Source: Saccharothrix sp. S26 (GTDB lineage Bacteria > Actinomycetota > Actinomycetes > Mycobacteriales > Pseudonocardiaceae). From it: DNA of 64,000 nt. The notes under the pieces are model-generated. The model saw nothing but the letters and a program-made list of their open reading frames with translations, did no database searches and was not told the origin of the DNA. The stretch covers positions 186,001-250,000 of the forward strand of contig NZ_JAJUWT010000001.1 of the NCBI RefSeq assembly GCF_021390395.1, read 5' to 3'. Both the position numbers and the translations under genes were made by a program. How positions within the stretch are numbered: position 1 is the first letter of the stretch; every line of letters begins with the position of its first letter. Of this stretch, positions 9,018 to 49,620 are shown in pieces.

Positions 9018-9157
9018 CGGCCCTTCGGCCTCGGGCAACCCGCCGCCGGCCGGGGAGTCCGGAGCACTGCGCGAATGTCCTGGCACAGGCGGAACATAGC
9101 GAAGCCGATCCGGTCGCGACACCCCTTCGAGCGGCGCTCCTGCCCAGCGCACAGCCG

Positions 9158-9198: not shown

Positions 9199-9243
9199 CG
9201 CTTGACGGCAGCCGGCCGCCGCCTTGCCCCAGGAGGACCAACG

Positions 9244-11004: not shown

Positions 11005-11013
11005 CCAACACCC

Positions 11014-21311: not shown

Positions 21312-21421
21312 CGTGGCACGACGGGGGCCGTGATCAGGGCGACGAGCGTGTTCGGGTTCGGTAAAGGTCGCGGGCGGCATCCCCGGCACGGGTGAAATCC
21401 GGTCATTCCAGGTGAGCGCGG

Positions 21422-21470
21422 CATAACGACTCGGTCTCGACGTGCATCAACCGAACGGCGCAACGCGATA
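21422..21470 (+). promoter_or_regulatory. Duplicated promoter element, copy 1
   Basis: CATAACGA, 22 nt, CGAACGG, 7 nt, CGATA. The same three blocks recur with identical spacing at 22317-22365, and in both cases CGATA ends 61 bp before the ATG of a LAxTG-protein gene. Conserved spacing despite diverged sequence between blocks suggests sigma-factor or activator contacts. Confidence 0.55.
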
Positions 21471-21530
21471 CAGCAGCGACGGAGCAGTCCGATCCGCCGA
21501 ACGCCACTGCGAGCCCATGCGGAGACCCCC

Positions 21531-22365: not shown

Positions 22366-22425
22366 GAGGGGTGGTCGGTGTAGTTCGATCCCCCGGTCAG
22401 CCCTCGAACCACGCGGAGCAGCACC

Positions 22426-25266: not shown

Positions 25267-27206
<1,940 letters not shown>

Positions 27207-27231
27207 CCGTTTTGCGGTAACCATCCCCAGC

Positions 27232-28641
27232 GTGGGCCTGCTGGACGTGCTGGACGCGAAGCTCGGTGACGGGCTGGAGAGCTTGTTGTGCGCGCACCAC
27301 GCGAGACGGTTGCGCAAACTCGGGTGGGGTTCGGTGTTCGACCCCGCGGACGGCTGGTGGACGCCGCGGCGGCCGGTGCGGACCGGCAACCGGGTCGAGG
27401 TGCTGGTGGACGGGCACGAGGTGCTGCCCGCCATCGCCGAGGCGATCTCGTCGGCCCGCAAGTCCGTGCACCTGGCGGGGTGGTGCGCGAGCCCGGACTT
27501 CCGGCTGACCCGTGAGCCGGGCTCGCCGACGTTGCGCGAACTGCTGGCCTCGGCGGCGTCCCGGGTGCCGGTGCGCGTGCTGCTGTGGGCGGGGCCGCCG
27601 GTGCCGATGTTCGAGCCGACCCGCAAGCGGGTGCTGGCGAGCCAACGGGAGTTCACCCGGGACAGCGCGGTGCGGTGCGAGATCGACGCGCGCGAGCGGA
27701 CCTTGCACTGCCACCACGAGAAGATCGTCGTGGTGGACGACGAGGTGGCGTTCGTCGGCGGCATGGACCTGACCGCCGTGGAGGGCGACCGGCACGACAC
27801 CGCCGAGCACCCGCCGCGCGAACCGCTGGGCTGGCACGACATCGGCACGCGCCTGCGCGGCCCGATCGTCGCCGACGTGGCCGAGCACTTCCGGCAGCGC
27901 TGGCAGGAGATCGCGGGCGAGCAACTGCCGCCCGTGACCCCGCCCGCTCCCGCCGGTTCGTCGTCGGCGCAACTGGTGCGCACGATCCCGGAGCGCACCT
28001 ACGACTTCTGCTCGCGCGGCGAGTTCAGCCTGCTCGACTCCTACCTGCGGGCACTGCGCTCGGCGCAGCGCCTGGTCTACATCGAGAACCAGTTCCTGTG
28101 GTCACCGGAGGTGACCGAGGTGCTGCTGGCCAAGCTGCGCAAGCCGCCGCACCCGGACTTCCGGGTCGTCCTGGTGCTCCCGCGCAAGCCGAGCAACGGC
28201 GCCGACACCACCCGCGGCCAGCTCGGGCGCCTGCTGGACGCCGACGACGGCAACCACCGCCTGGTGGCCGCGACCTTGTCCTCGCACGACGGCGTGACGT
28301 CCTCGTCGGTCTACGTGCACGCCAAGCTGGCCATCGTGGACGACCGCTGGCTGAGCGTGGGTTCGGCCAACCTCAACGAGCACTCGCTGTTCAACGACAC
28401 CGAGGTCAACCTCGTCACCGACGACCCGGCGGTCGCCCGTGACACCCGCCTGCGCCTGTGGTCGGAACACCTGCAACGCCCGCTGTCCGCGGTGTCGGGC
28501 CCCGCCCACGAGGTCGTGGACCGCCTCTGGCGCCCGACCCTGACCTCTCCCGGCAAACACCGCCTGACCGCCCTGCCGGGCGTCTCCCGCCGCGCCGGCC
28601 GCCTCCAAGGCCCGCTGCGCGGCCTCCTCGTCGACGGCTGA
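27232..28641 (+). CDS. Phospholipase D-like protein (two HKD motifs)
   Basis: 469-residue PLD-superfamily enzyme. The two catalytic motifs are HHEKIVVVDDEVAFVGGMDL near residue 163 and VHAKLAIVDDRWLSVGSANL near residue 363, so one complete active site can form. There is no signal peptide or membrane segment, though the C-terminus is very basic (KHRLTALPGVSRRAGRLQG). It could be a phospholipase, a cardiolipin synthase-like transferase or a nuclease; PGWHDIGTRLRGP and ENQFLWSPEV favour the phospholipid-acting branch. GTG at 27232, 25 nt after the Pth2 gene; no clear ribosome site. Repeat array B starts 8 bp after the stop. Confidence 0.85.
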   Translation: MGLLDVLDAKLGDGLESLLCAHHARRLRKLGWGSVFDPADGWWTPRRPVRTGNRVEVLVDGHEVLPAIAEAISSARKSVHLAGWCASPDFRLTREPGSPTLRELLASAASRVPVRVLLWAGPPVPMFEPTRKRVLASQREFTRDSAVRCEIDARERTLHCHHEKIVVVDDEVAFVGGMDLTAVEGDRHDTAEHPPREPLGWHDIGTRLRGPIVADVAEHFRQRWQEIAGEQLPPVTPPAPAGSSSAQLVRTIPERTYDFCSRGEFSLLDSYLRALRSAQRLVYIENQFLWSPEVTEVLLAKLRKPPHPDFRVVLVLPRKPSNGADTTRGQLGRLLDADDGNHRLVAATLSSHDGVTSSSVYVHAKLAIVDDRWLSVGSANLNEHSLFNDTEVNLVTDDPAVARDTRLRLWSEHLQRPLSAVSGPAHEVVDRLWRPTLTSPGKHRLTALPGVSRRAGRLQGPLRGLLVDG

Positions 28642-28648
28642 CCCGCGA

Positions 28649-28752
28649 GTCCTACGTTCAGAACGCGAGAGTCCTACGTTCGCGTCGCGCGTGTCCTACG
28701 TTCAGAACGCGCGTGTCCTACGTTCAGAACCCCCGAATTCAACACTCAGAAC
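28649..28752 (+). repeat. 22-bp-period repeat array B (4 units + terminal motif)
   Basis: Units start at 28649, 28671, 28693 and 28715, exactly 22 bp apart. Unit 2 has a diverged right half (TTCGCGTC in place of TTCAGAAC). The terminal motif runs 28730-28752 (CCCCCGAATTCAACACTC then AGAAC). Lies between the convergent PLD and dinG genes. Confidence 0.9.
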
Positions 28753-28773
28753 ACGCGACCTGCGCGAACGCCG

Positions 28774-30801
28774 TCAGTTGTTCGCCGCGTCGAGCCGCTT
28801 GAGCGCCGCACGCACGACCTCCGGGTCGTACGTCGTCCAGAACGGCGGCAGCGAGGCGCGCAGGAACCCGCCGTAACGGGCCGTCGCCAGGCGCGGGTCG
28901 AGGATCGCCACCACGCCCTTGTCGTTCATCGAACGCAGCAGCCGCCCGGCACCCTGGGCCAGCAGCAGCGCCGCGTGCGTCGCCGCCACGGTGAGGAAAC
29001 CGTTGCCGCCACGCGTTTCCACCGCCTTCTGCCGCGCCGACGCCAGCGGGTCGTCCGGCCGCGGGAACGGGATGCGGTCCATCACCACCAGCGACAGCGA
29101 CGGCCCCGGCACGTCCACGCCCTGCCACAACGACAACGTCCCGAACAGGCACGTCCGCGCGTCCTCGGCGAACCGCTTCACCAACTGCCCGGTCGCGTCG
29201 TCACCCTGGCACAGCACGGGGTGCTCCAGCTTGCCCCGCAACGCCTCCGCCGCCGCCTTCGCCGCACGCATCGACGAGAACAGCCCCAACGTCCGTCCAC
29301 CGGCCGCGTTCACCAGGCCCTCGATCTCGTCCACATAGGACGGTGGCAGCCCGTCGCGCCCCGGCGGTGGGAGGTGCCGTGCCACGTACAGGATCCCGGC
29401 GCTCCCGTGCGAGAACGGCGAGCCGACGTCCAGCCCGCTCCACCGCGGCCCGCTCACGTCCGACGGCGGCTCCTTGTCCGTCGCCGCACCCTCGGCCTTC
29501 TTCACCCCGGACGACGCCGGCAGCCCCCACTGCCGCGCCAACGTGTCGAACGTCCCGCCCAACGTCAACGTCGCCGACGTCAGGACCGTGGTGCGCTTGC
29601 CGAACAGCCGCTCCCGCAGCAACCCGCCCACGCCCAGCGGCGCGACCCGCAGCGACGGCGCCTTGGTGCGGTCCGCGAAGTCACCCGACACCCACACCAC
29701 GTCGTGGTCGGCGTCGAACGCCTCCAGGATCCGCGTGGCGCAGTCGTGCACCTCGTCCAGCAGCGACAGCGCCAGCTTGCGCGAGGTCGCGCCGTCGACG
29801 TCCTCCTTGCGTTCCGGCCCCAACGACGTGATGCACGCGTGCGCCGCGTCCTTGGTCGCCCGCAACGCGCCCGCCAACGCCTGCGGCAGGCTGTCGAGCC
29901 GACCCGGGGGCATCTCCTCGAGGATCATCGCCAGGCCGTCGCTCGCCTCGGCCATCCGGTCGGCCACGCCCTGGTCGATGAGCCGTCCGCAGCGCCGCGC
30001 GGCCGTGGCGACCAGGGACGCGCTCAGCTCCTCCGTGGCCACCGACGTCACCCGGTCGACCAGGTCGTGCGCCTCGTCGATCACGACCACGTCGTGGTCG
30101 GGCAGCACCTGGTAGCCCTCCAGCGCGTCCACGGCGAGCATCGCGTGGTTGGTCACCACGATGTCGGCCTTGCCCGCCTCGGCCCGCGCCTTCTCGGCGA
30201 AGCAGTCGACGCCGATCGGGCACTTGTTCACGCCCAGGCACTCGCGCGCGGTCACGGACACCTGCCGCCACGCCTGGTCCGTGACGCCGGGGACGAGCTC
30301 GTCCCGGTCGCCGGTCTCGGTGTCGGACGACCACTCGTGCAGGCGCTTGATCTCGCGGCCCATCTTGGACACCGCGAACGGGTCGAACAGGCCCGCGTCC
30401 TCGGGCTCGTCGGGCGCGCCGGTGTGCAGGCGGTGCATGCACAGGTAGTTGCGGCGGCCCTTGAGGATGGCGAAGCGCGGTTCGCGTCCCAGCTCCTTGC
30501 GCAACGCCTTGGCCAGGCGCGGCAGGTCGCGGTCCACGAGCTGGCGTTGCAGGGCGATCGTGGCGGTGGAGATGACGACCGTCGACTCCTCGGCCACCGC
30601 GTGCCGCAGGGAGGGCACCAGGTAGGCCAGCGACTTGCCGGTGCCGGTGCCCGCCTGCACGGCCAGGTGCTCTCCGGTGCGGATCGCCCGTTCGACGGCC
30701 TCGGCCATGTCGACCTGGCCCTGCCGTTCGGCTCCGCCCACCGCCTCCACGGCGACGGCGAGCAACGTCCGGGTGTCGGGGATCGCGGTGGTGGCGGGCA
30801 C
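28774..30801 (-). CDS. dinG: DinG-family ATP-dependent DNA helicase
   Basis: Superfamily 2 iron-sulfur (XPD-like) helicase of 675 residues. Motif I is QAGTGTGKSLAYLVP, motif Ia follows in TIALQRQL, motif II is VVIDEAHDLVDR (DEAH), and the C-terminal motif VI is AQGAGRLLRSMNDKG. Four Cys fit the 4Fe-4S cluster: LCMHR, then ECLGVNKCPIGVDCF. The GTG at 30801 (VPATTAIPDTRTLL) is preferred; the frame remains open much further upstream but that part is antisense shadow of the glycosyltransferase region. TACGGT ends 7 nt before it, suggesting a leaderless start. In mycobacteria dinG is followed directly by pncB; here about 5 kb intervene. Confidence 0.95.
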   Translation of the reverse strand: MPATTAIPDTRTLLAVAVEAVGGAERQGQVDMAEAVERAIRTGEHLAVQAGTGTGKSLAYLVPSLRHAVAEESTVVISTATIALQRQLVDRDLPRLAKALRKELGREPRFAILKGRRNYLCMHRLHTGAPDEPEDAGLFDPFAVSKMGREIKRLHEWSSDTETGDRDELVPGVTDQAWRQVSVTARECLGVNKCPIGVDCFAEKARAEAGKADIVVTNHAMLAVDALEGYQVLPDHDVVVIDEAHDLVDRVTSVATEELSASLVATAARRCGRLIDQGVADRMAEASDGLAMILEEMPPGRLDSLPQALAGALRATKDAAHACITSLGPERKEDVDGATSRKLALSLLDEVHDCATRILEAFDADHDVVWVSGDFADRTKAPSLRVAPLGVGGLLRERLFGKRTTVLTSATLTLGGTFDTLARQWGLPASSGVKKAEGAATDKEPPSDVSGPRWSGLDVGSPFSHGSAGILYVARHLPPPGRDGLPPSYVDEIEGLVNAAGGRTLGLFSSMRAAKAAAEALRGKLEHPVLCQGDDATGQLVKRFAEDARTCLFGTLSLWQGVDVPGPSLSLVVMDRIPFPRPDDPLASARQKAVETRGGNGFLTVAATHAALLLAQGAGRLLRSMNDKGVVAILDPRLATARYGGFLRASLPPFWTTYDPEVVRAALKRLDAANN

Positions 30802-30853
30802 GGCGAAGACCGTACCCGCCCACCCCGTCAGGGCGGGTCGGACACCCCAACGC

Positions 30854-30913
30854 GTCCTGAGCGTTGAACTCGGGGGTTCTGAACGTAGGACACTCGCGTT
30901 CTGAACGTAGGAC
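30854..30913 (-). repeat. 22-bp-period repeat array C (2 units, minus orientation)
   Basis: Two reverse-oriented units (GTTCTGAACGTAGGAC) at 30876-30891 and 30898-30913, preceded by the reverse terminal motif GAGCGTTGAACTCGGGGG. It starts 10 bp after the glycosyltransferase stop on the minus strand, so it has the same 3'-of-gene orientation as arrays A and B. Confidence 0.9.
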
Positions 30914-30923
30914 TCGCGCGGGG

Positions 30924-32282
30924 TCAGTGGTCCAGTGCCACGTCGCCGGTGATCCGCTCGGTGTTCCGGCGCGTCTTGGCCCACCCGTTGCGCCCGCGCG
31001 CCAACCGGATCACGGCCCGCCACGACGTGATGTAGAAGGTGTAGATGTAGAGCGCGTACGCGAACCCGAGGCCGACCGCCCGCCAACGACCCAGCGCAGG
31101 CGCGCACCGCGTCCGGTACACCGGTCCCCACAGCACGAACGGCAGCAGGCCGAACATCCCGTACACCGTGAACAGGATCCACGCGCCGTCGACGAACCAC
31201 GTCCACACCTCGCCCGGCGCGGTCACGGCCCGGTGGCCCAGCAGCAGCAACGGGATGGGGTAGACGAGCGTGCCGAGCAACTGCATCCACGGCTGGGCCA
31301 GGTAGTACATCATCTCCGACGCGCCCAACGTGGACAGGTGCGGCGACGCCCAGATCCGCCGCACGTACCGCAGGCACTGCATCGTCCCCTGGCCCCACCG
31401 GGTGCGCTGCGCGAGGAACCGCCGCAGGCTGTACAGCCCTTCCTGGTGCACGTGCGCGTCCAACGTGAACCCGGTGCGCCACCCCGCGGTGAGCAGGTGC
31501 ACCCCCAGCTCGAAGTCCTCCAGCAGCGACCCGCGCCACGGCTGACCGGCCGGCCCGGCGATGGAGTCCAACGCCGACAACCGGGTGAACTGGCCGTTGC
31601 CGCCCATGGAGATCGTGCCGGTGACCCCGCGTGACAGCTGGATCGCCGCGATCGCCGTCCGGAACTCCAGGTCCTGCATCCGCACCAGCAGGTCGCCGAG
31701 CACCCCGCGCCACCGCGGCACGCCCGCCTGCCGCACGCCCGCGTTCACCATCCGCACGTCCACCTGCACCGCGCCGATCGCGGGGTCGCCGAACAGGTGC
31801 TCCGCCGCGCACACGTCCAGGCAGTTGCGGGCGGGGCGCCCGTCGGCGTCGACCACGACGACCACGGCCCGGTCGGCGTCCGCGTGCCGCCCCATCCACA
31901 GCTTCAACGTCCGGTAGGCGTCGTTGAGCGCGTCACCCTTGCCGGTCCGCGCGTGCGGCCGCCGCCGTCGCACGAGGTGGATGTTGCGGTCGTCGCGGAA
32001 GCCGCGCACGACCTCCGCCGTGCCGTCGTCGGAGTCGTCGTCGATGACCCACACGTGCGCCCCGGGGAACGACTCGCGCAGGTACCGGACCGTGTCACCG
32101 ATGACGGCCTCCTCGTCGCGGCACGGCACGAGGAAGTGCCACTCGAAGTCGGCCGCCCGCCCCACCGGCCGCGGCCGGTACCGCAGGTAGGGCACCACGA
32201 TCAGGAACACGTACGTCACGAACGCGACGCTCATCGTCAGCGCCAACGCCTGGGTGAACCCCAGCAGCACGTCGAGGTTCAT
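30924..32282 (-). CDS. Processive-type GT2 membrane glycosyltransferase
   Basis: 452-residue membrane enzyme of the cellulose/hyaluronan synthase-like GT2 class. An N-terminal helix (10-31) precedes the GT-A domain: WVIDDDSDDGTAEVV, VVVVDADGRP (DxD, about 145), LLEDFELG (ED, 255-257) and QRTRWGQG (the QxxRW motif, 292-296), which marks processive beta-glycosyltransferases. Three to four C-terminal helices follow. It would polymerise a sugar chain from a UDP-sugar and extrude it. It lies 28 nt behind the exosortase gene on the same strand, so both are probably one transcript; UDP-GlcNAc 2-epimerase, a donor-making enzyme, is divergently encoded in the same island. The product is unknown. Confidence 0.9.
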   Translation of the reverse strand: MNLDVLLGFTQALALTMSVAFVTYVFLIVVPYLRYRPRPVGRAADFEWHFLVPCRDEEAVIGDTVRYLRESFPGAHVWVIDDDSDDGTAEVVRGFRDDRNIHLVRRRRPHARTGKGDALNDAYRTLKLWMGRHADADRAVVVVVDADGRPARNCLDVCAAEHLFGDPAIGAVQVDVRMVNAGVRQAGVPRWRGVLGDLLVRMQDLEFRTAIAAIQLSRGVTGTISMGGNGQFTRLSALDSIAGPAGQPWRGSLLEDFELGVHLLTAGWRTGFTLDAHVHQEGLYSLRRFLAQRTRWGQGTMQCLRYVRRIWASPHLSTLGASEMMYYLAQPWMQLLGTLVYPIPLLLLGHRAVTAPGEVWTWFVDGAWILFTVYGMFGLLPFVLWGPVYRTRCAPALGRWRAVGLGFAYALYIYTFYITSWRAVIRLARGRNGWAKTRRNTERITGDVALDH

Positions 32283-32310
32283 CGCGCCACCACGACCACG
32301 TCGGCGCGCC

Positions 32311-32829
32311 TCACCGCCGCGTCGCCAACCACACGAACGCCACCAGCGCGGCCGCGCCGCCGAACACGCTCACCATCGAGCCGAGCAGCGTGTGGCCCCA
32401 GTAGTAGCCGCGGTCGACGCCGAGCCACTCGACCAGCCCGACCAGCGTCAACACCCGCGCCTGGTTCACCACGACCACCGCGACGCCCGCCACGACCAGC
32501 GCGAACAGCACCCTGCGCGTGATCCGCGGCCGCAACGCGATCATCACCGCGCCCACCGCCAGCAGCGGCACGACGAGGAACGCCGACGTGCACTCGGGCG
32601 TCATCCGCAGGCCGAGCGGGGTGCCGGAGCCGAGCCCGAAGTAGACGGTCTGCCGTGCCACGACGACCTCCACCCCGTCGGAGCTGATCAGGTCGAGCAG
32701 CAGCCCGGACAGCAGGATCTCGGCGGTCCGGTAGGCCCGGTGCGCCACCACGAGGCCGGCGGCGGCCGCCACCAGTGCGACGACGACCACCCGGTTGAGG
32801 CGTTCGGTGCGGGGCACGGCAAGCGCCAC
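32311..32829 (-). CDS. Exosortase/archaeosortase-family transpeptidase (likely XrtP-like)
   Basis: 172-residue polytopic membrane protein with about five helices. The exosortase/archaeosortase catalytic triad is in the right order and topology: Cys80 in MTPECTSAFL, Arg125 in VNQARVLTLVGLVEW and His146 in YYWGHTLLGS. These enzymes cut C-terminal tripartite tags and transfer the protein to an envelope component. It is much shorter than proteobacterial EpsH-type enzymes, as usual for compact actinobacterial forms. GTG at 32829 with GGAAGGA upstream. Its probable substrate, with an exosortase-type tag, is encoded divergently 256 bp away. The class assignment (exosortase P) is from memory of the NCBI family naming, not from a search. 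Confidence 0.85.
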   Translation of the reverse strand: MALAVPRTERLNRVVVVALVAAAAGLVVAHRAYRTAEILLSGLLLDLISSDGVEVVVARQTVYFGLGSGTPLGLRMTPECTSAFLVVPLLAVGAVMIALRPRITRRVLFALVVAGVAVVVVNQARVLTLVGLVEWLGVDRGYYWGHTLLGSMVSVFGGAAALVAFVWLATRR

Positions 32830-32847
32830 TGAAAGAGTCCTTCCATC

Positions 32848-32860
32848 CGATCAGGGATCG
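32848..32860. promoter_or_regulatory. CGATCAGGGATCG motif upstream of the exosortase gene
   Basis: Imperfect palindrome with CGAT and ATCG arms, 18 bp upstream of the exosortase start. An almost identical sequence (one base different) stands at 35295-35307 before the second secreted protein of the island, suggesting a common regulator. Confidence 0.4.
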
Positions 32861-33018
32861 CCCGATAGGGCTGCTTGAAGGTCATCGGATCGCCGTACTG
32901 CGAACCTCACCCCCGGATCGAGTGACAACGTGAGGTGATTTCGGGCTGACTACCCACCTGCGGTGGTCCCGATTGGGCGATTCGAGTGGCCGCCGTCCCC
33001 CTTTACGGTCAGTAACCC

Positions 33019-33045
33019 TTAATCCCACGGGAGGAACGCCGATAG
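33019..33045 (+). promoter_or_regulatory. WhiG/FliA-like promoter candidate
   Basis: TTAA, 15 nt, GCCGATAG, against the WhiG/FliA consensus TAAA-N15-GCCGATAA (one mismatch in each box). It lies 40 bp before the ATG of the tagged secreted protein. WhiG controls early sporulation in aerial hyphae of streptomycetes; whether this organism has WhiG cannot be seen here. Confidence 0.4.
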
Positions 33046-33085
33046 GGGCAATTGCTCGATAAACACGTTTCGAGAAAGGAGCCCC

Positions 33086-33859
33086 ATGCGTGTCCGAATG
33101 ACGCGTCGTGCCGCGGTGGCCGGGCTGGTCGCCGTCGCGGCGCTCGTCGTGAGCGCCGCGCCCGCCTCGGCGGCGCCCGGGGACGCCTCGGCCCACGGCG
33201 CCAAGCTCGCCCTCTCGCTCCTGGGCCGGGACGCGGTGTCCGCCGGGCCCTTCGCCGCCGCCGCCGCGGACGGCCCCACGACCAGCACGTTCGCGTCCGT
33301 GGACCGGCCCGGCGTGCTGCGCACCGGCGTGCTCGACGCGTCCGCGTCACGCGATGACAAGACCGGCGGCGTCAGCTCCTGGGCGAGCACCGCCGACGTC
33401 CGCCTCGACCTGCTCGCGACCGTCACCGGCGGCCTGTCGGCCCAGTTGGCCGAGGCCGAGTGCGCGGCCACCCAGAAGGGCGTGATGGGCAAGGCGAAGC
33501 TCGCCGGGCTCGACCTCGGCCGGCTCGGCGACGTCGACGCGGAACCCGCGCCCAACACCGCGATCGACGTCGACCTCCTGGGCGTGGACATCGCCAGGGT
33601 CGTGTTCAACGAGCAGGTCCGCAACGCCGACGGCAGCCTCACCGTCAACGCCGTCCACGTCACCCTGATCGGTGGCGTGCTCGGCTCGCTCGGCTCCGGC
33701 GACCTGGTGATCTCGTCCGCGACCTGCGGTCCGGCCGGCTTGCCGATCCCGATGGCGTCCGGCGCGGGCCTGTGGATCGGGCTGGGCCTGCTCGCGCTGT
33801 TCGGCGTGCCCGTCGGCGCCGCGGCGCTGCGCCGCCGGCACGACCTCGAGGCGGTCTGA
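33086..33859 (+). CDS. Secreted protein with exosortase-type C-terminal sorting signal (choice-of-anchor P-like)
   Basis: 257-residue exported protein. The signal peptide (RMTRRAAVAGLVAVAALVV, cleavage after ASA-AP) precedes a beta-rich domain of about 190 residues with two late Cys (AEAECAAT, SSATCGPAG). The C-terminus is a tripartite tag: LPIPMASG, a hydrophobic helix of about 20 residues (GLWIGLGLLALFGVPVGAAA) and basic ALRRRH. The tag lacks an LPxTG-type Thr-Gly, which fits exosortase rather than sortase processing. The pattern VNAVHVTLxxG ... GDLVISSATC resembles the domain NCBI calls choice-of-anchor P. ATG at 33086 with AAAGGAG upstream. Divergent from the exosortase gene and followed after 2 nt by the mini-anchor gene, so these form a natural enzyme-substrate locus. 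Confidence 0.8.
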   Translation: MRVRMTRRAAVAGLVAVAALVVSAAPASAAPGDASAHGAKLALSLLGRDAVSAGPFAAAAADGPTTSTFASVDRPGVLRTGVLDASASRDDKTGGVSSWASTADVRLDLLATVTGGLSAQLAEAECAATQKGVMGKAKLAGLDLGRLGDVDAEPAPNTAIDVDLLGVDIARVVFNEQVRNADGSLTVNAVHVTLIGGVLGSLGSGDLVISSATCGPAGLPIPMASGAGLWIGLGLLALFGVPVGAAALRRRHDLEAV

Positions 33860-33861
33860 GC

Positions 33862-34029
33862 ATGTACAGGGTTCCCGGCAGCGGTGTCGCGGTCGGTACG
33901 GGAATCGGCTCGTTGGCGGCCACCGGCGCCGGCGTCGCGTGGTGGGTGGTGGCCGGTGTCGTGCTGCTGGTGGCCGGCCTGCTGCTGATCCGCGCGTCAC
34001 GCGGGCGACGAGCGGCGGCCGACGAGTAG
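33862..34029 (+). CDS. 55-residue LAATG mini-anchor membrane protein
   Basis: Very small protein: about 17 N-terminal residues (MYRVPGSGVAVGTGIGS), then LAATG, a single hydrophobic helix (VAWWVVAGVVLLVAGLLLI) and the basic end RASRGRRAAADE. It looks like a bare class E sortase (LAxTG) or exosortase-type anchor with no passenger domain and no signal peptide. The ATG lies 2 nt after the tagged protein's stop, so it is translated from the same message. Such small tag-only proteins could act as an assembly partner or a decoy substrate. Family not recognised. Confidence is for the gene being real. Confidence 0.65.
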   Translation: MYRVPGSGVAVGTGIGSLAATGAGVAWWVVAGVVLLVAGLLLIRASRGRRAAADE

Positions 34030-34115
34030 CGCGCGTGCGCCCCGGTCGCGCGCCCACCCCCAGTCGCGCGCCCGGGGCGCCGCACCACCCACCGAACCGC
34101 AGTGAGAGGAGCAAG

Positions 34116-35279
34116 GTGAAGGAAGTCGTGCTGCTCGCGGGCACCCGGCCCGAAGCGGTGAAGATCGCGCCGGTGGCGCTGGCGCTGGGCGACCACCCGG
34201 TGCTCCGACCCGTGATCGTGCACAGTGGACAGCACAACGGCATGGTCGAGCAGGCGCTGCGCTCGTTCGGCCTGCTCGCGGACGTCGAGCTGGACGTGCC
34301 GCGGGTCACCGGCAGCCAGGCCGAGCTGCTGGCCCGCCTGGTCGCGGAGTTCGACCGGCTGCTGCGCGAGCGCGACCCGGCCGTCGTCCTCGTCCAGGGC
34401 GACACGACCACCGCACTGGCGGGCGCGCTCGCCGCCTTCTGGCGCGGCATCCCGGTCGCCCACCTCGAAGCCGGCCTGCGCACCGGCGACCTCGCCGGGC
34501 CGTTCCCCGAGGAGGGCACCCGGCAGATGATCGCCCGGATCTGCGCGCTGCACCTCGCGCCCACCGACGACGCCGCGGCCGCGCTGGTCCGCGAGGGCAT
34601 GGCCGACCGCCGGATCGTGGTCACCGGCAACACCGTGGTCGACGCCGTGCAGCGCGTCGCCGCCGCCGACCTGCCCGCCCGCGACCCCCGGCTCGCCGTG
34701 CTGGAACGCGTGCTCGACGAGCGCTCCGAACGCCTGGTCCTGGTCACGGTGCACCGGCGCGAGTCGTGGGGCGAGCCGCTGTCGCGCGTGCTGCGCGCCG
34801 TGCGGGCGATCGCCGACCGGCACCCCGACGTGCGCGTGCTGCTGCCCGTGCACCCGAACCCGCGGGTGCGCGCGGCGGCGCGGAACCTGCTCGGCGGGCA
34901 CGAGCGGATCGTGGTGACCGAGCCGTTGGACTACTCCGACCTGGTGCGCGCGCTGCGCCGGGCCGCGCTGGTGCTGACCGACTCCGGCGGCCTCCAGGAG
35001 GAAGCGCCCACGTTCGGCGTGCCGGTGCTCGTGCTGCGTGACACGACCGAGCGGGTGGCCGCGGTGGACGCGGGCTGCGCGTGGCTGGTCGGCACCGACC
35101 CGATCCGGATCATCGCCGAGGCGGGCTGGGTGCTCGGCGCGCGGCTGCGGCTGCCGTTGGGGCGCAACCCGTTCGGCGACGGGCGGGCGGCGGGCAGGGT
35201 GCGCGGGGCCTTGGAGCGGCTCGTCGGCCTGCCGAACGACTTCTCGACCGCGCCGCTGCCCGTGCGCATCCCGTGCTGA
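34116..35279 (+). CDS. wecB: UDP-N-acetylglucosamine 2-epimerase (non-hydrolysing)
   Basis: 387-residue GT-B-fold epimerase interconverting UDP-GlcNAc and UDP-ManNAc. The family markers are LLAGTRPEAVKIAPV, VIVHSGQHNGMVEQ, VQGDTTTALAGALAAF, HLEAGLRTGDLAGPFPEEGTRQMI (with the catalytic acidic residues), VTVHRRESWGEPL and LTDSGGLQEEAPTFGVPVLVLRDTTER. GTG at 34116 with GAGAGGAG upstream. It supplies an activated sugar and lies in the exosortase island opposite a processive glycosyltransferase, so ManNAc-containing glycan synthesis is a reasonable guess. Confidence 0.93.
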   Translation: MKEVVLLAGTRPEAVKIAPVALALGDHPVLRPVIVHSGQHNGMVEQALRSFGLLADVELDVPRVTGSQAELLARLVAEFDRLLRERDPAVVLVQGDTTTALAGALAAFWRGIPVAHLEAGLRTGDLAGPFPEEGTRQMIARICALHLAPTDDAAAALVREGMADRRIVVTGNTVVDAVQRVAAADLPARDPRLAVLERVLDERSERLVLVTVHRRESWGEPLSRVLRAVRAIADRHPDVRVLLPVHPNPRVRAAARNLLGGHERIVVTEPLDYSDLVRALRRAALVLTDSGGLQEEAPTFGVPVLVLRDTTERVAAVDAGCAWLVGTDPIRIIAEAGWVLGARLRLPLGRNPFGDGRAAGRVRGALERLVGLPNDFSTAPLPVRIPC

Positions 35280-35294
35280 CCGCGCCCTGTCACT

Positions 35295-35307
35295 CGATCA
35301 GGTATCG
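35295..35307. promoter_or_regulatory. CGATCAGGTATCG motif upstream of the second secreted protein
   Basis: Differs by one base from the motif at 32848-32860. It lies about 100 bp before the start codon. The shared motif ties this gene to the exosortase promoter. Confidence 0.4.
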
Positions 35308-35406
35308 GTTTTTCCACTTGCGGGTGATGTGGGCGCTAGATCGTCAGCCGCCGTCCGCCGGGGCTCGATAGTCCTCACGTCCGTGATGAAGGAGAAGGGC
35401 GACACG

Positions 35407-36069
35407 ATGAAGCAGATCGGAGCGCGCCGGGTCGGCGCCGTGGCCTCGGCGCTCGTACTCGGCCTGGTCGCGGCCGCGCCACCGGCGTCGGCGGCCAACC
35501 CGGCGGGGGTGGCGTCCGTCGGCTCCGCCGAGTTCACCAAGGCGGGCACGCGGGTCACCGTCGCGCCGCTGGCGCCGTGCGCGGTGGACGGCCGGACGTC
35601 GAACTCGTCCGAGGCGGTGAGCCGCACGGGCGTCCGGTTCGGCCCGGGCACGTCGTCGTGCGCCACCGCGGTCGTGGACCCGGACCACGGCACGACCAGG
35701 ACCACGTCCGAGGCGGACGGCACCGAGTTCGAGCTGTCGGCGCTGGTGTCGGCGGGCGGGCCGCGCCTGCGGGTGGCCCGGTGGAAGGTGACGTGCACGG
35801 GCACCGAGTCCGGCACGAGCGCGGGCTGGGCGGCCGACGGTTTGCAGGGCTTCTCGGGGCTGCCGGAGCAGATCACGCCGAACTACGTGCACGAGGTGAA
35901 GGCGGGCAACGGCGCGGTGCTGGCGACCGCGACGTTCGGCGAGACGATCCTGCCCGACCCGAACGACGGCAGCATCGCGATGAACATGCTGCACCTGCGC
36001 TTCACCGAGGCCTCGGGCTTGACCGGCGACGTCGTCCTCGGCTCCACCGCCTGCTCCCCAACCCCCTAA
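35407..36069 (+). CDS. Secreted protein related to the tagged surface protein, without an anchor
   Basis: 220-residue exported protein with signal peptide (RRVGAVASALVLGLVAAAP, cleavage near ASA-AN). The mature part has four Cys (APCAVDG, SSCATAV, VTCTGTES, STACSPTP). Its end (MNMLHLRFTEASGLTGDVVLGSTAC) aligns in pattern with the same segment of the 33.1-kb protein (VNAVHVTLIGG ... GDLVISSATC), but it stops there with no hydrophobic tag. It may be a freely secreted companion of the anchored form. ATG at 35407 with GGAGAAGGG upstream; an ATG at 35386 is possible. Repeat array D starts 10 bp after the stop. Confidence 0.75.
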   Translation: MKQIGARRVGAVASALVLGLVAAAPPASAANPAGVASVGSAEFTKAGTRVTVAPLAPCAVDGRTSNSSEAVSRTGVRFGPGTSSCATAVVDPDHGTTRTTSEADGTEFELSALVSAGGPRLRVARWKVTCTGTESGTSAGWAADGLQGFSGLPEQITPNYVHEVKAGNGAVLATATFGETILPDPNDGSIAMNMLHLRFTEASGLTGDVVLGSTACSPTP

Positions 36070-36078
36070 CCCGCGCGA

Positions 36079-36160
36079 GTCCTACCTCCAGAACGCGTGT
36101 GTCCTACGTTCAGAACGCGAGAGTCCTACGTTCAGGACCCCCGAGTTCAACGCTCAGAAC
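36079..36160 (+). repeat. 22-bp-period repeat array D (3 units + terminal motif)
   Basis: Units at 36079, 36101 and 36123 (22-bp steps). Unit 1 is diverged (TACCTCCAG). The terminal motif CCCCCGAGTTCAACGCTC plus AGAAC ends at 36160. Lies at the right edge of the exosortase island, between convergent genes. Confidence 0.9.
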
Positions 36161-36177
36161 ACGCCACCCGCGGGTTC

Positions 36178-36206
36178 GGGTGCCCCGGAGCCGATCCGGG
36201 GCACCC
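36178..36206. terminator. Hairpin terminator for pncA
   Basis: GGGTGCCCCGGA (36178-36189) pairs perfectly with TCCGGGGCACCC (36195-36206), 5-nt loop. It begins 7 bp beyond the pncA stop and could also stop plus-strand transcripts coming from the island. Confidence 0.75.
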
Positions 36207-36212
36207 AGGGGG

Positions 36213-36782
36213 TCAGCCGACGCGCGGGGTGCCCTTCAGCGTCACGCCGGCGTCACCGAGCTGCGCCAACGCCCCGTCCACCGTCGCCCGCGCCACACCG
36301 GCCGTCAGGTCCAGCAGCACGGTCGTGGCGAACCCGGCGCCCGCCGCGTCCAACGCCGTCGCCCGCACGCAGTGGTCCGTGGCGATCCCCACCACGTCCA
36401 CCCGCTCCACGCCACGCGCCCGCAGCCAGTCCACCAACTGCTCGCCCGCGCCGGACGTGCCCTCGAACCCCGAGTACGCCGCCGCGTACTCGCCCTTCGA
36501 GAACACCGCCTCCACCGCCGTCACGTCCAGCTCCGGGTGGAACGACGCACCGGCCGTCCCCGCCACGCAGTGCACCGGCCACGAGTCCACGAAGTCCGGC
36601 GTCTCGCTGAAGTGCGACCCCGGGTCCACGTGGTAGTCGCGCGTCGCCACGACGTGGTCGTACGACGACGACGCGACGTGCGCCGAGATCGCCGCCGCCA
36701 CCGCCGCACCGCCCGCCACCGCCAACGACCCGCCCTCGCAGAAGTCGTTCTGCACGTCCACCACGATCAGCGCCTTGCCCAT
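36213..36782 (-). CDS. pncA: Nicotinamidase
   Basis: Isochorismatase-fold amidase of 189 residues that hydrolyses nicotinamide to nicotinate (and activates pyrazinamide in mycobacteria). Catalytic Asp is in IVVDVQNDFCEGG, Lys in VFSKGEYAAAYSGFEG, and nucleophilic Cys in GIATDHCVRATALDA; metal ligands in TRDYHVDPGSHF. ATG at 36782, 7 nt after the pncB stop, with GAGG upstream; a GTG at 36785 is the alternative. Co-transcribed with pncB for NAD salvage. Confidence 0.95.
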   Translation of the reverse strand: MGKALIVVDVQNDFCEGGSLAVAGGAAVAAAISAHVASSSYDHVVATRDYHVDPGSHFSETPDFVDSWPVHCVAGTAGASFHPELDVTAVEAVFSKGEYAAAYSGFEGTSGAGEQLVDWLRARGVERVDVVGIATDHCVRATALDAAGAGFATTVLLDLTAGVARATVDGALAQLGDAGVTLKGTPRVG

Positions 36783-36789
36783 CACAGCC

Positions 36790-38064
36790 TCACAGGAACG
36801 TCGTCGGAATCGCGGGCTCGCCGCGGGACAGCTTCAGACCCTCCCACGGCACCGTCACCAGGGCGGCACGCAGCCGCTCCCGGCTCTCCACCAGGGTGTC
36901 GAGGTCGTCCACCCGTTGTCCAGCGCGGACCAGCGGCACGGCCAGCAGCCGGTCGTGCTCGCCCGTCGACGGCTGGGCGTCGTGCGGGAACACGACCTCC
37001 TCCAACGCCGTCCCGGTCTCCTTGTGCCGCCGCAGCGCGCTCTTGCGCCCGCCGCGCGACTCCTTGTGCGAGCTGCGCTTGGCCACCGGCCGCCCGTCCA
37101 CCTCGACCAGCTTGTAGACCATGCCCGCGGTCGGTGCGCCGGACCCCGTGACCAGCGACGTGCCGACGCCGTACGCGTCCACCGGTTCGGCCCGCAGCAT
37201 CGCGATCGAGTACTCGTCGAGGTCGCCCGACACCACGATCCGGGTGTTCCGCGCGCCCAGCGAGTCGAGCTGGTCGCGCGCCTGCCGCGCCAGCACGCCC
37301 AGGTCGCCGGAGTCGATCCGCACCGCGCCCAGCTCAGGCCCGGCCACCTCCACGGCGGTCTTGATGCCGTTGGTGATGTCGTAGGTGTCCACCAGGAGGG
37401 TCGTGTCCACGCCCAACGCCTCGACCTGCGCCCGGAACGCCTCCTCCTCGCTGTCGTGCAGCAGGGTGAACGCGTGCGCGCACGTCCCGGCGGTCGGGAT
37501 GCCGTGCCGCCGGGCCGCCTCCAGGTTCGACGTGGCGGTGAACCCGGCCAGGTACGCGGCGCGTGCGGCGGCCACCGCCGCCTCCTCGTGCGTGCGGCGC
37601 GACCCCATCTCGATCATGCGCCGCCCGTTGGCCGCGCTGACCATCCGCGCCGCGGCCGACGCGATCGCGCTGTCGTGGTTGAGGATCGACAGGGCGAGCG
37701 TCTCCAGCACCACGCCCACGCCGAACGGCGCGCGCACGGACAGGATCGGCGAGCCCGGGAAGTACAGCTCGCCCTCCGGGTAGCCGTCCACGTCACCGGT
37801 GAACGAGTAGTCCGCCAGCCACGACAGCGTGGCCTGGTCGACCACGTTCGTGCGTTCCAGCAGCTCCAGGTCACGTTCGGTGAACGTGAAGTCGGTGATC
37901 GCGTCCAGCAGCCTGCCGGTGCCCGCGACCACCCCGTACCGCCTGCCCTCCGGCAGCCGCCGGGCGAAGACCTCGAAGACGCACGGCCGGTCCGCGGTGC
38001 CGTCGCGCAGCGCCGCGGCGAGCATCGTCAACTCGTAGTGGTCGGTGAACAGCGACGTCGACAT
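36790..38064 (-). CDS. pncB: Nicotinate phosphoribosyltransferase
   Basis: 424-residue NAD-salvage enzyme that forms nicotinate mononucleotide from nicotinate and PRPP. Visible are [19 protein letters not shown], the phosphorylated-His region and ribose-phosphate contacts in [64 protein letters not shown] and [12 protein letters not shown]. Start ATG at 38064; the ribosome site is weak. Upstream and divergent is clpS, with 77 bp between, exactly as in the mycobacterial pncB1-clpS arrangement. Confidence 0.95.
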
Positions 38065-38141
38065 GGGGACAGAGCCTAAGCGGTCGGCCGGGGTGGCCCT
38101 GCGGGCTCCACCGCGGAGCGGAACATGACACCATTGGCGGT

Positions 38142-38441
38142 ATGACCACGCCCGTCGAGCATGAGCGGACGCAGGTTGACCCGGCAGGCGAGGAGGTCCG
38201 CTCCGAGGACCGCCCCTGGCAGACGCTGGTCTGGAACGACCCGGTGAACCTGATGTCCTACGTGACGTACGTGTTCCAGAAGCTGTTCGGCTACAGCCGC
38301 GACCACGCGACCAAGCTGATGCTGGACGTGCACCACAAGGGCAGGGCGATCGTGTCGTCGGGGACCAAGGACAAGGTGGAGGCCGACGTGGCCAAGCTGC
38401 ACGCGGCCGGGCTCTGGGCGACCATGCAGCGTTCGTCGTGA
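38142..38441 (+). CDS. clpS: ATP-dependent Clp protease adaptor ClpS
   Basis: 99-residue adaptor that delivers N-degron substrates to ClpC/ClpAP. The core [46 protein letters not shown] carries the N-end binding pocket (ND...M) and the Clp-contact helix. An acidic tail of about 25 residues precedes the core. The stop overlaps the GTG of the following DUF2017 gene, as in mycobacteria. Confidence 0.96.
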
Positions 38442-38995
38442 AGAAGTGGACACGCACCGGCGACCAGGTGCTCGGCCGGTTCGACCGGCAGGAAGCGGCC
38501 GTGGTGCGCGGCCTGGTGAGCCAGATCCAGGACATGCTGCTGGCCCGCGCCGAGGAGGCGCCGCAGGACGAGCTGGCGGAGCTGACCGGCATCCGCACCG
38601 GGCCGTCCACGCCGCCGGACGACCCGATCCTGGGCCGGCTGCTGCCGGACTTCCACCGGCTCGACCCCGACGCGCCGGACCCGGCCGAGGTCGACTCGGC
38701 CAACGCGCTGCGGTCGTTGCACGAGCCGGAGCTGCTGGACCTCAAGACCGGGGTCGCGGCCGTGGTGCTCCAGACGTGCCCGCCCGACGGCGGTGAGGTG
38801 CGGCTGGCGTTGGAGCAGGCCGAGGCGTGGCTGTCGGCGTTGAACGACGTGCGGCTGGCGCTGGGCACGGCGCTGGACGTGCAGGAGGACATGCCCGACG
38901 AGCTGCCGCCGGACGACCCGCGGTCGCCGCACCTGGGCGTCTACCACTGGTTGACGTGGGTGCAGGAGACGCTGGTCGAAGCGGTCATGAACTGA
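38438..38995 (+). CDS. DUF2017 family protein
   Basis: 185-residue helical protein of unknown function, ortholog by position of mycobacterial Rv1332. Conserved parts are [53 protein letters not shown] and a C-terminal [22 protein letters not shown] ... [15 protein letters not shown]. The constant association with clpS suggests a role in regulated proteolysis, but no activity is known. GTGA overlap with clpS and TGATG overlap with the next gene. Confidence 0.9.
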
Positions 38996-39558
38996 TGCTG
39001 GTGGGGCGGGCGGCGGGGGCGGCCGTGCTGCTGACGCCCGGTGGGGCGGTGGCCGGGGTGGACGTGCGGGGCGCGCCGGTCGGCACCCGTGAGCTGGACC
39101 TGCTGGACCCGTCGACGTTGGTGCGGCGGGTGCACGCCGTGGTGCTGGGCGGGCCTTCGGTGGTCGACGGTGTCGTGCGCTGGCTGGCCGAACGCGGCCA
39201 CGGCTTCCCCGTCGGCCCGCAGCCGTTCGAGGTCGTCCCGATCGTCCCCGCCGCCGAGCCCTTGGGCCTGCCCCCGGCCGACGGCTACGCGATGTGCACC
39301 TCCGCCGTGCCGCTGGACGCCCCCGCTCTGGCCCTGATCGGCTCGACCGCCGTCGGCTTGGTCGTGGTGGACGCCGACCTGGACCCGGCGGGGTGCCGAA
39401 GGGTGGCGATGTCCGCCCAGGACGCCTTGGCCCGCGCCGGCGTGACCGCGCCCGCCACCGTCTTCGCCGTCGCCACCGGCCACCCGACCGACACCGGCTT
39501 GAACACCCTCTGCACCACCGCCACCACCGCCCTCCACCACGCCGTCGGCCGGTCCTGA
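38995..39558 (+). CDS. Compact P1 (DmpA/S58)-family peptidase
   Basis: 187 residues, against roughly 330-370 for normal actinobacterial P1 peptidases such as Rv1333, which holds this place in the operon. The start of the fold is recognisable (GAAVLLTPGGAVAGVDVRGAPVGTRELDLLDPSTLVRRVHAVVLGGPS, VRWLAERGHGFPVG, VVPIVPAA). So is a shortened end: ALIGSTAVGLVVVDADL, CRRVAMSAQDALARA, TVFAVATG and NTLCTTATTAL. The long middle, including the GNVGAGTGATVGK-type segment, is missing in frame. A Gly-Ser pair (GSTA) sits where S58 enzymes self-cleave before Ser/Thr, so partial activity is conceivable, but it may be a non-enzymatic relic. Its stop codon lies inside repeat array E. Confidence 0.8.
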   Translation: MLVGRAAGAAVLLTPGGAVAGVDVRGAPVGTRELDLLDPSTLVRRVHAVVLGGPSVVDGVVRWLAERGHGFPVGPQPFEVVPIVPAAEPLGLPPADGYAMCTSAVPLDAPALALIGSTAVGLVVVDADLDPAGCRRVAMSAQDALARAGVTAPATVFAVATGHPTDTGLNTLCTTATTALHHAVGRS

Positions 39559-39682
39559 GCGTTGAACTCGGGGGTTTTGGACGTAGGACTCTCGCGTTCC
39601 GAACGTAGGACTCGCGCGAGAGTCCTACGTTCGCGCCGCGTGTGTCCTACGTTCGGAACGGCTGAATTCAACGCTCGCGAAC
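39552..39682. repeat. Repeat array E, outward inverted pair (2 reverse + 2 forward units)
   Basis: Reverse terminal motif and reverse units at 39574 and 39596, then forward units at 39622 and 39644 and a diverged forward terminal motif to 39682. At the junction GTAGGACTCGCGCGAGAGTCCTAC is nearly palindromic. The reverse terminal motif supplies the TGA (39556-39558) of the P1 peptidase gene. Orientation is opposite to the other pairs (F and G), where forward comes first. Confidence 0.85.
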
Positions 39683-39698
39683 GGGGTACCCGGCCGGT

Positions 39699-40235
39699 AT
39701 GGCCGGTGTGCAGAAGGCGTTGAAGTGGGTGCGGACGAGTCCGGCGGTCGGCAAGGCGGCCGGGGCGTTGGCGGAGGCGGTGCCCGCCGCCCTACGCCGA
39801 CGCGAGGTGACCAAGCTGCTGCGCGCGCGAGCCCTGGGACGGCCGGTGCACCCGGCGGTCGTGGCGTTGCCCATCGGGCTGTACGCGGCGTCCGCGGCGC
39901 TGGACCTGATGCCGGGCGGCGGCAAGGCGGCGCGGACGGCTATCGGGGCGGGGCTGGCCCTCGCACCGGCGGCGTTGGCCACCGAACTGGCCGAGTACGG
40001 CACGCTGCCCGAGAACAAGCGGCGGGCCGCGTTCGTGCAACTGGCCGCCAACGCAGCGGCGACTGTGTGCTACCTCACGTCGTTCCGGCTCCGGGGCCAC
40101 GGCTTCGGCCTGATGGCCAGGGGCGCTTCCGCGCTCGGGCTCGCGGTGCTGGGCGCGGGCGGCCTGCTGGGCGTCCACCCGACCGACCCCGCGGTGCACC
40201 GTGCGGTCTACGAAGGCACGCGCGAACCGGTGTAG
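39699..40235 (+). CDS. DUF2231-type membrane protein
   Basis: 178 residues with about four hydrophobic segments. The DUF2231 signature is RPVHPAVVALPIGLYAASAALDL; similar HPxxVxxPIG motifs mark this family of presumed redox/heme-associated membrane proteins. An amphipathic N-terminal helix of about 45 residues precedes it. It separates the P1 peptidase from mec, a pair adjacent in mycobacteria, so it is an insertion flanked on its left by repeat array E. Confidence 0.8.
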   Translation: MAGVQKALKWVRTSPAVGKAAGALAEAVPAALRRREVTKLLRARALGRPVHPAVVALPIGLYAASAALDLMPGGGKAARTAIGAGLALAPAALATELAEYGTLPENKRRAAFVQLAANAAATVCYLTSFRLRGHGFGLMARGASALGLAVLGAGGLLGVHPTDPAVHRAVYEGTREPV

Positions 40236-40286
40236 TGCGAGTTCTCACACCCCGGGACACCTTCCCCCACCACGTAGGATGGAGGG

Positions 40287-40742
40287 GTGCTGGTGATTCG
40301 CCGTGACCTCGTCGACGCGATGGTGGCGCACGCCCGTCGCGACCACCCGGACGAGGCGTGCGGGATCATCGCGGGCCCGGAGGGTTCCGACCGCCCGGAG
40401 CGGTTCATCGCGATGGACAACGCCGAGCGCTCGCCGACGTTCTACCGCTTCGACTCGATGGAGCAGCTGCGCGTCCACCGCGAGATGAGCGCGAACGACG
40501 AGGAGACGATCGTCGTCTACCACTCGCACACGGCGACGGAGGCATACCCGTCCCGCACGGACATCTCCTACGCGAGCGAACCGCAGGCGCACTACGTGCT
40601 CATCTCCACCCGTGACCCGGAGCAGCACGAGCTGCGCTCCTACCGGATCGTGGACGGCGTGGTGACCGAAGAGCCGGTCGAGGTCGTGGAGTCGTACATG
40701 TTCGCCCACACCGGCGCCGACGACACCCCCGACTGTCCCTGA
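40287..40742 (+). CDS. mec: CysO-cysteine peptidase (JAMM metalloprotease)
   Basis: 151-residue JAB1/MPN+ zinc peptidase that releases cysteine from the CysO-cysteine adduct. The JAMM motif is complete: Glu in PDEACGIIAGPE, then VVYHSHTATEAYPSRTDISYA (HxHx7Sx2D). A leaderless start is likely: TAGGAT ends 6 nt before the GTG at 40287, so the transcript begins at the start codon. Followed after 73 nt by cysO and then cysM. Confidence 0.95.
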   Translation: MLVIRRDLVDAMVAHARRDHPDEACGIIAGPEGSDRPERFIAMDNAERSPTFYRFDSMEQLRVHREMSANDEETIVVYHSHTATEAYPSRTDISYASEPQAHYVLISTRDPEQHELRSYRIVDGVVTEEPVEVVESYMFAHTGADDTPDCP

Positions 40743-42062
<1,320 letters not shown>

Positions 42063-49611: not shown

Positions 49612-49620
49612 ACGCGGGGG

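Follow-up and report, generated by a model that had tools for sequence, protein, structure and literature searches.

The PEP-CTERM/EpsH system (Haft 2006, PMC1569441) combines an exosortase bearing a catalytic triad, a tripartite tag and linked polysaccharide synthesis. The same traits are found in the locus described here, an exosortase locus at positions 30924-36069 of a 64,000-nucleotide stretch from Saccharothrix sp. S26 (the window, by which we mean the whole stretch analyzed). The cited passage of that paper places PEP-CTERM/EpsH in outer-membrane bacteria and reports no example from Actinomycetes, whereas the window locus has its own cargo in the neighbourhood and a micro-protein of the sortase type. 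Likewise, the XrtG locus of Lactiplantibacillus plantarum (PMC12854382) comprises a Firmicu-CTERM protein, XrtG and two glycosyltransferases, and thus resembles the window in having a Gram-positive exosortase with cargo and glycosyltransferases, but the cited passage mentions neither an LPXTG micro-protein nor WecB, and the XrtG model gave no match to the window exosortase at E-values up to 1. According to the cited part of the work on Streptomyces class E sortases (PMC5148588), their substrates carry an LAXTG motif, a helix and a basic tail as the micro-protein does; the micro-protein differs in lacking a signal peptide, in having only 17 residues before the motif and in its gene being part of an exosortase module. 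In Haloferax, archaeosortase A (PMC7157517) belongs to the same superfamily as the window exosortase, XrtP, and has the same proposed thioester chemistry, but its product is lipid-anchored, and a micro-protein is not mentioned in the passage cited.

The window locus matches every model of the NCBIfam XrtP set (NF012139, NF053846, NF053845/NF040603 and NF058583) and is a member of this catalogued family. These models name the parts only, and the glycosyltransferase model is named for XrtP. The original prediction, made from the DNA sequence, had regarded the locus as an independent actinobacterial version of exosortase systems; the exosortase already has an NCBI model. New here are the fixed order of the five genes, the evidence from genomes that serve as natural knockouts and the recurrence of the micro-protein with divergent exosortases. 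The knockout evidence and the association of exosortases with a GT2 synthase and a sortase-signal micro-protein outside XrtP reach past the catalogued family. Among the literature matches listed, no paper addressed the five-gene system in its title or the start of its abstract. To our knowledge, no acceptor for the cargo of bacterial exosortases has been established.

The five-gene module and its parts

All six open reading frames (ORFs) of the original prediction were located at the same coordinates within 30924-36069, and five of them gave NCBIfam matches over cut-off (glycosyltransferase, exosortase P, CoaP, LAXTG small protein and WecB). The glycosyltransferase gene (30924..32282) and xrtP (32311..32829) lie on the minus strand, and coaP (33086..33859), the micro-protein gene (33862..34029) and wecB (34116..35279) on the plus strand, facing away from the former pair across a divergent intergenic region (32830..33085). 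This order and these directions are identical in all 76 loci compared, which consist of the window and 75 named loci from a profile search of genome contigs with XrtP; XrtP is therefore present by construction, but the other four genes are not. The micro-protein starts 1-21 nucleotides past the CoaP stop in every one of the 76 loci, and in none of them does the exosortase lack a tagged neighbour. The 75 loci are not independent, being from related species of one family, with one strain giving two copies. The comparison shows the five genes to be inherited as a unit. Together with the relaxation or decay of the partners after XrtP loss (see below), it supports treating the exosortase, its tagged cargo, the glycan synthase and the UDP-sugar epimerase as a single module, and we consider that the five genes very probably constitute one functional module. 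Two copies of it are present in Actinokineospora iranica IBRC-M 10403 (L083 and L099), and another genome, G030, also carries it twice (L044 and L045), with exosortases of 191 and 177 bits, slightly under the XrtP cut-off.

The 172-residue product of 32311..32829 is assigned as an exosortase on its profile and motif matches, as originally predicted. It scored 259.2 bits against NF012139 (cut-off 200), covering profile positions 1-159 of 159, i.e., the full length, and 33.6 bits against TIGR04178 (exo_archaeo, cut-off 23), and it remained under the cut-offs of Pfam PF09721 (22.5 bits, cut-off 25.7) and the EpsH-type TIGR02602 (13.7 bits, cut-off 105.55). The predicted Cys/Arg/His triad was recovered as C79, R124 and H145, invariant across 21 aligned exosortases (numbering of alignment A1; add one for the 172-residue protein). 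The nearest four named XrtP relatives are Saccharothrix records with 84-88% protein identity. The XrtP-associated, processive-type GT2 glycosyltransferase matched NF053846 with 724 bits (cut-off 520). It has hydrophobic segments close to each end and the motifs DDDS, DADG, EDFEL and QRTRW at residues 81, 145, 255 and 292, a set typical of processive GT2 synthases. The third enzyme matched TIGR00236 with 377.5 bits (cut-off 210) and is WecB, UDP-N-acetylglucosamine (UDP-GlcNAc) 2-epimerase, a family that converts UDP-GlcNAc into UDP-N-acetylmannosamine (UDP-ManNAc). Because WecB makes UDP-ManNAc, the product of the synthase and WecB is likely a ManNAc-containing polymer.

CoaP is a secreted choice-of-anchor P protein of 257 residues. 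When checked against choice-of-anchor and sorting-signal models, it exceeded the cut-offs of NF040603 (choice_anch_P, 77.7 bits, cut-off 27) and NF053845 (CoaP_CTERM, 67 bits, cut-off 35), the latter at residues 219-252. This C-terminal sorting tail (33740..33841, plus strand) has the layout PIPMASGAGLW..., helix, RRRH; it reads PIPMASG instead of the PEP of PEP-CTERM tags, and PxPxAS[GA]xG is found in the CoaP tail of 75 of the 76 loci. It was the sole CoaP_CTERM match reported in the window genome (G000:C1:219740-219841), with 69 of 150 candidates scored; several genome profile searches scored part of the candidates only, and misses in them are not proof of absence. Profiles of CoaP and XrtP gave no match among solved structures at E-values up to 1. 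Genome G049 has both a CoaP_CTERM protein (G049:C45:20019-20120, L179) and, on a different contig, a divergent exosortase accompanied by an LAATG micro-protein (G049:C40, L048).

The micro-protein (MYRVPGSGVAVGTGIGSLAATGAGVAWW...) has 55 residues, a Met-Tyr start, one membrane helix and a basic tail. It scored 80.9 bits against NF058583 (LAXTG_small_WW, cut-off 65) and 17.3 bits against TIGR01167 (LPXTG_anchor, cut-off 15.9). Its LAATG motif at residues 18-22 (33913..33927, plus strand), hydrophobic helix and basic C-terminal tail have the layout of a sortase substrate, except for the signal peptide: the single hydrophobic segment (residues 25-43) comes after the motif. Both Tyr2 and LAxTG are present in 76 of 76 micro-proteins. 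We also considered a chance ORF, an explanation ruled out by the rarity of the strict Met-Tyr/L[AP]xTG pattern away from exosortases, where it occurred once in 1.89 Mb, at the relic site of the XrtP-less genome G020; the same 1.89 Mb held seven pattern matches with a second residue other than Tyr. Among 13 XrtP-less loci, the pattern appeared in four, as relics (L178 and L180) and as LANTG ends of longer proteins (L173, L176 and L178). The locus set of the 1.89-Mb survey is redundant, with some genomes in duplicate copies, and L044 does have a micro-protein.

XrtP-less genomes as natural knockouts

Genomes that have lost XrtP provide an evolutionary assay for the parts that depend on the exosortase. 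XrtP scored over cut-off in 13 of 25 genomes of the genus and was absent from 12, six of which (G001, G002, G003, G005, G009 and G020) have kept CoaP. A replacement exosortase was ruled out as an explanation, as none of the 12 XrtP-less genomes had a match over the 23-bit cut-off of TIGR04178; weak matches of 12.7-17 bits occurred in G002, G003, G009 and G020. Cargo without its enzyme thus exists as well, since the six genomes that kept CoaP have no exosortase above the cut-off. Partial remnants of the module are found at the same site in XrtP-less genomes, and XrtP was lost with CoaP kept on at least four branches (G001/G003/G005, G020, G002 and G009), counted with losses taken as irreversible on a tree of four flanking proteins in which several deeper nodes are weak and the pairs G013-G020 and G009-G011 have support of 99 and 78.

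The ratio of nonsynonymous to synonymous substitution (dN/dS) was higher in pairs of an XrtP-less and an XrtP-bearing genome than in pairs of two XrtP-bearing genomes for the CoaP body (0.55 vs 0.35), the CoaP tail (0.46 vs 0.25), the micro-protein (0.62 vs 0.43), wecB (0.37 vs 0.20) and the single surviving glycosyltransferase (0.65 vs 0.20), and it was not raised for pncB (0.13 vs 0.12) and ORF6 (0.50 vs 0.55); genomes recur across the pairs, each pair takes in both branches, and the p-values ignore relatedness, which weakens the comparison as support for the reading proposed below. Among the six CoaP-bearing XrtP-less genomes, the glycosyltransferase scored over cut-off only in G003 and left a remnant in G009. 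The micro-protein is gone from two of the six (G003 and G005) and is changed at its most conserved sites, Y2, L18, T21 and WW among them, in three of the remaining four. Changes were counted at the columns on which at least 95% of the 76 loci agree. In the micro-protein there are three in G001, three in G002, four in G009, none in G020 and one in G045, a genome of the same family without XrtP or CoaP, against none in 12 XrtP-bearing genomes and one in the thirteenth (rank test, p 0.001). The CoaP tail has two changes in G009, one each in G002, G005 and G020 and none in G001 and G003, against a single change in one of the 13 XrtP-bearing genomes (rank test, p 0.004). Both tests involve related genomes, and the 76 loci that define the columns include seven of the 13 XrtP-bearing ones. 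These substitution rates and gene contents show CoaP, the synthase, the micro-protein and WecB relaxing, decaying or vanishing once XrtP is gone.

WecB is whole in all six CoaP-bearing XrtP-less genomes and also in G021 and G024, and may thus have service elsewhere. In G007, wecB is split over two frames (L187 7886-9194) at a site without XrtP, glycosyltransferase, CoaP and micro-protein.

Micro-proteins beside divergent exosortases and related synthases

Beyond the XrtP group, searches with the XrtP and XrtS models and by alignment yielded another 23 loci with an exosortase. A synthase with at least 219 bits to the profile of the window glycosyltransferase is present in 14 of them (L046-L050, L203-L210 and L221), eight reach at most 61 bits (L211, L212 and L222-L227), and L051, a very weak match, is counted in neither group. 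A Met-Tyr/L[AP]xTG micro-protein occurs in 12 of the 14 loci with the related synthase, a split from the other eight that was drawn after the loci had been seen. Their common plan is a Met-Tyr start, a spacer of 6 to 74 residues, the motif L[AP]xTG (LPQTG, LPFTG, LAVTG, LAPTG and LAFTG among others), a helix and a basic tail, without a signal peptide. None of the ten micro-proteins tested (of 12) reached the NF058583 cut-off, and two of the ten passed that of LPXTG_anchor. All nine exosortases validly tested (of 14) exceeded the exo_archaeo cut-off, and none of these nine reached those of XrtP, XrtS or XrtR.

Tagged cargo was found in or near 12 of the 14 loci, with none at L205 and only a distant candidate at L048; two cargos show below-cut-off likeness to an ice-binding protein and a tandem-repeat adhesin. 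The cargo tails vary between these systems (VAPA, PVPLGDG, IPVASS), and L[AP]xTG stays constant. At L203, three tandem cargo proteins (7094-9598) with a near-identical IP[AI]VAPAVA tail stand behind one exosortase.

As a control for the synthase alone, an alignment search of 394 genomes of the class gave 37 matches, of which 30 were fetched and the window's own was left out. A Met-Tyr/L[AP]xTG micro-protein lies within about 1.5 kb in seven of eight synthase loci with an exosortase and in none of 21 without (Fisher p 5e-6, ignoring relatedness and with exosortase presence judged inside the fetched stretch). Five more loci without a local exosortase (L181-L185) contributed one LAGTG case, which lacks Tyr2 (L182); the genome behind one of these five loci, G043, has exosortases elsewhere. 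A one-helix Met-Tyr micro-protein stands just upstream of the synthase in nine of the 21 exosortase-less loci (L267, L271-L274 and L276-L279), and in two others the micro-protein begins Met-His (L282 and L283). At L271-L274, LA[LF]TG occurs near the N terminus of the micro-protein, far from the helix. Across the loci, Met-Tyr thus goes with the synthase, at some of them, and L[AP]xTG with the exosortase. We think it likely that the micro-protein belongs to the exosortase pathway. Wherever an exosortase and a GT2 synthase lie together, looking for Met-Tyr, a spacer, L[AP]xTG, a helix and a basic tail should bring more such small genes to light.

Candidate anchoring routes and the genomic site

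The reading that we rate highest, with a chance we put a little short of even, is a surface-display module in which XrtP passes CoaP to a sortase-held wall acceptor. Family membership implies that XrtP would cut the CoaP tail near P-x-P-x-A-S-G with a membrane-embedded Cys/Arg/His site and form a thioester with CoaP, and that WecB would feed UDP-ManNAc to the membrane-bound processive GT2 synthase. Lacking a signal peptide, the micro-protein could enter the membrane with its N terminus outside, and a housekeeping sortase would cut its L[AP]xTG and join it to peptidoglycan. Several related synthases without an exosortase adjoin Met-Tyr micro-proteins that have no helix-adjacent L[AP]xTG; we therefore assign the Met-Tyr end to the synthase side, where it may serve as acceptor or primer of the ManNAc glycan or as a subunit for it. 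XrtP would hand CoaP to the wall-held micro-protein, the ManNAc glycan or both, and the exosortase step would end on the cell wall, not on lipid. That a sortase processes the micro-protein is, in our judgement, rather probable; that CoaP ends covalently on a micro-protein/glycan acceptor is a tentative proposal that we hold to be somewhat improbable. If a micro-protein with a sortase signal is part of the acceptor pathway, the question of what receives the cargo can be addressed by mass spectrometry and gene deletions. The company of exosortase, cargo and synthase with a sortase-signal micro-protein in all 76 loci suggests that two anchoring systems treated as separate, exosortase and sortase, may cooperate. 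A chaining of both pathways across Actinomycetota through the Met-Tyr micro-protein as a covalent adapter, which would carry or prime the ManNAc glycan at one end, be bound to peptidoglycan by sortase at the other and receive the exosortase cargo, we regard as doubtful; if it were true, the exosortase acceptor in this branch would be a gene-encoded peptide.

A separate sortase is favoured as the reader of L[AP]xTG because the motif is fixed and the cargo tails are variable. Class E sortases read LAXTG, as stated in the cited part of PMC5148588. A sortase domain was present in all 21 genomes searched, which is only permissive.

Several observations count against the favoured reading. The motif of the micro-protein agrees only in part with those of other sortase substrates from the same genomes. 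Such substrates were readable for 16 of 30 LPXTG_anchor matches, from eight of 12 genomes, with a model that favours LPXTG; agreement was seen in G000, G087, G276 and G830 and a mixed picture in G361, and in G132, G154 and G285 the readable substrates have LPxTG and the micro-protein has LAxTG. Two divergent loci with the related synthase (L050 and L206) lack the micro-protein, and it is likewise missing from L051 and from the eight loci whose synthase is of another kind or that have no related one, so that only 12 of all 23 exosortase loci outside the XrtP group possess one. An intact-looking micro-protein is kept in the XrtP-less G020, and the 12 most conserved tail columns are unchanged in the XrtP-less G001 and G003. 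Moreover, the CoaP reading frame is open in all six knockouts that retain it, and CoaP may thus have a role without sorting.

The fixed ends of the micro-protein, Met-Tyr and L[AP]xTG, separated by a spacer of 6 to 74 residues, the position of its gene immediately after coaP and the exposed N terminus expected from the missing signal peptide are also compatible with a direct adapter, in which XrtP would join the C terminus of CoaP to the Met-Tyr N-terminal amine, sortase would link L[AP]xTG and the glycan would be separate. This was our first choice until the Met-Tyr micro-proteins beside exosortase-less synthases listed above were found; with XrtP alone insufficient to explain these, we now consider it unlikely. 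The same micro-proteins fit an archaea-like lipid anchor, in which XrtP would join CoaP to an aminolipid and the micro-protein would be only a regulatory or structural subunit of the synthase. According to the cited part of PMC7157517, ArtA needs homologues of phosphatidylserine synthase and decarboxylase, and its substrate is lipidated. However, none of the six ORFs at 30924-36069 encodes a lipid enzyme, and the exosortase-tracking L[AP]xTG would be without a role, which leaves this route with a low probability. In a further alternative, XrtP itself would cleave both CoaP and the micro-protein, the latter at L[AP]xTG, with sortase uninvolved. The helix-adjacent motif does track the exosortase, the window CoaP and micro-protein tails share an A-[ST]-G...W layout, and the motif in three genomes is unlike the other readable sortase substrates. 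Yet the divergence of the cargo tails beside a constant L[AP]xTG fits a separate reader, and LAXTG is the class E sortase signal (PMC5148588, in the part cited), so we find a single enzyme for two substrates quite improbable.

Returning to the sortase-held acceptor, one comparison bears on Tyr2. Genes for N-acyl amino acid synthases are frequent neighbours of PEP-CTERM/exosortase genes in Gram-negative bacteria, and N-acyl tyrosines are the product of one such cluster (PMC7293339, in the passage cited), to which the Tyr2 of the micro-protein would be a speculative and perhaps coincidental parallel. The literature excerpts also raise the possibility that a new moiety is left at the exosortase cleavage site.

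A recent accessory island bounded by the flanking repeats, to which the patchy presence of XrtP in 13 of 25 genus genomes could point, is highly improbable, since the same site is used in other genera, XrtP-less genomes hold remnants and the repeats are missing from 16 of the 25 genomes, eight of them with XrtP. The original prediction of a discrete insertion between dinG and pncB therefore had to be revised. The dinG flank stands, but pncB is not the direct neighbour because a nicotinamidase-like gene (36213-36785, minus strand; PRK11609, 119.5 bits, under the cut-off of 174) intervenes, making the interval dinG-pncA. The module lies between dinG and pncA, both within the roughly 20-kb locus, in 35 of the 75 named loci, from genera including Lentzea, Kutzneria, Umezawaea, Actinokineospora and Labedaea; most other named loci are from Amycolatopsis, where dinG and pncA are both out of reach. 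With the site common to several genera and remnants in XrtP-less genomes, the pattern is one of losses.

Nor do the 22-bp repeat arrays C (30851..30920) and D (36072..36164) mark island edges, as had been proposed, because the repeat is dispersed. Its 16-base core has eight copies in the window and 82 exact copies in the genome, and it is present in nine and absent from 16 of the 25 genus genomes, eight of the latter having XrtP over cut-off (G004, G010, G011, G012, G014, G017, G019 and G022). ORF6 (35407..36069, plus strand), predicted to be an anchorless relative of CoaP within the island, is indeed a weak, secreted CoaP relative (55 bits to the CoaP profile), with no NCBIfam or Pfam match. 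Its membership in the module was ruled out because all 25 genus genomes have it and dN/dS is not raised for it after XrtP loss; it occurs in 32 of the 75 named loci.

A search of 26000-41000 against Rfam gave no match at the gathering threshold. Near dinG, several relatives carry an ORF for a membrane protein of about 165-190 residues that is not in the window (L173 8362-8904, L175 11822-12364, L177 7644-8216, L180 6228-6728, L187 7261-7812, L190 7926-8468 and L191 8365-8916). By eye, this protein seemed BioY-like; the L173 copy had no NCBIfam match. The tandem 22-bp repeat, with the core TCCTACGTTCAGAACG, occupies 11013-11100, 28644-28758, 30851-30920, 36072-36164, 49438-49613 and 62909-63086 of the window. 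Apart from the module, two adjacent plus-strand ORFs at 21396-22283 and 22384-23136 encode proteins with the classical LAXTG sortase signals LASTG and LANTG at their ends.

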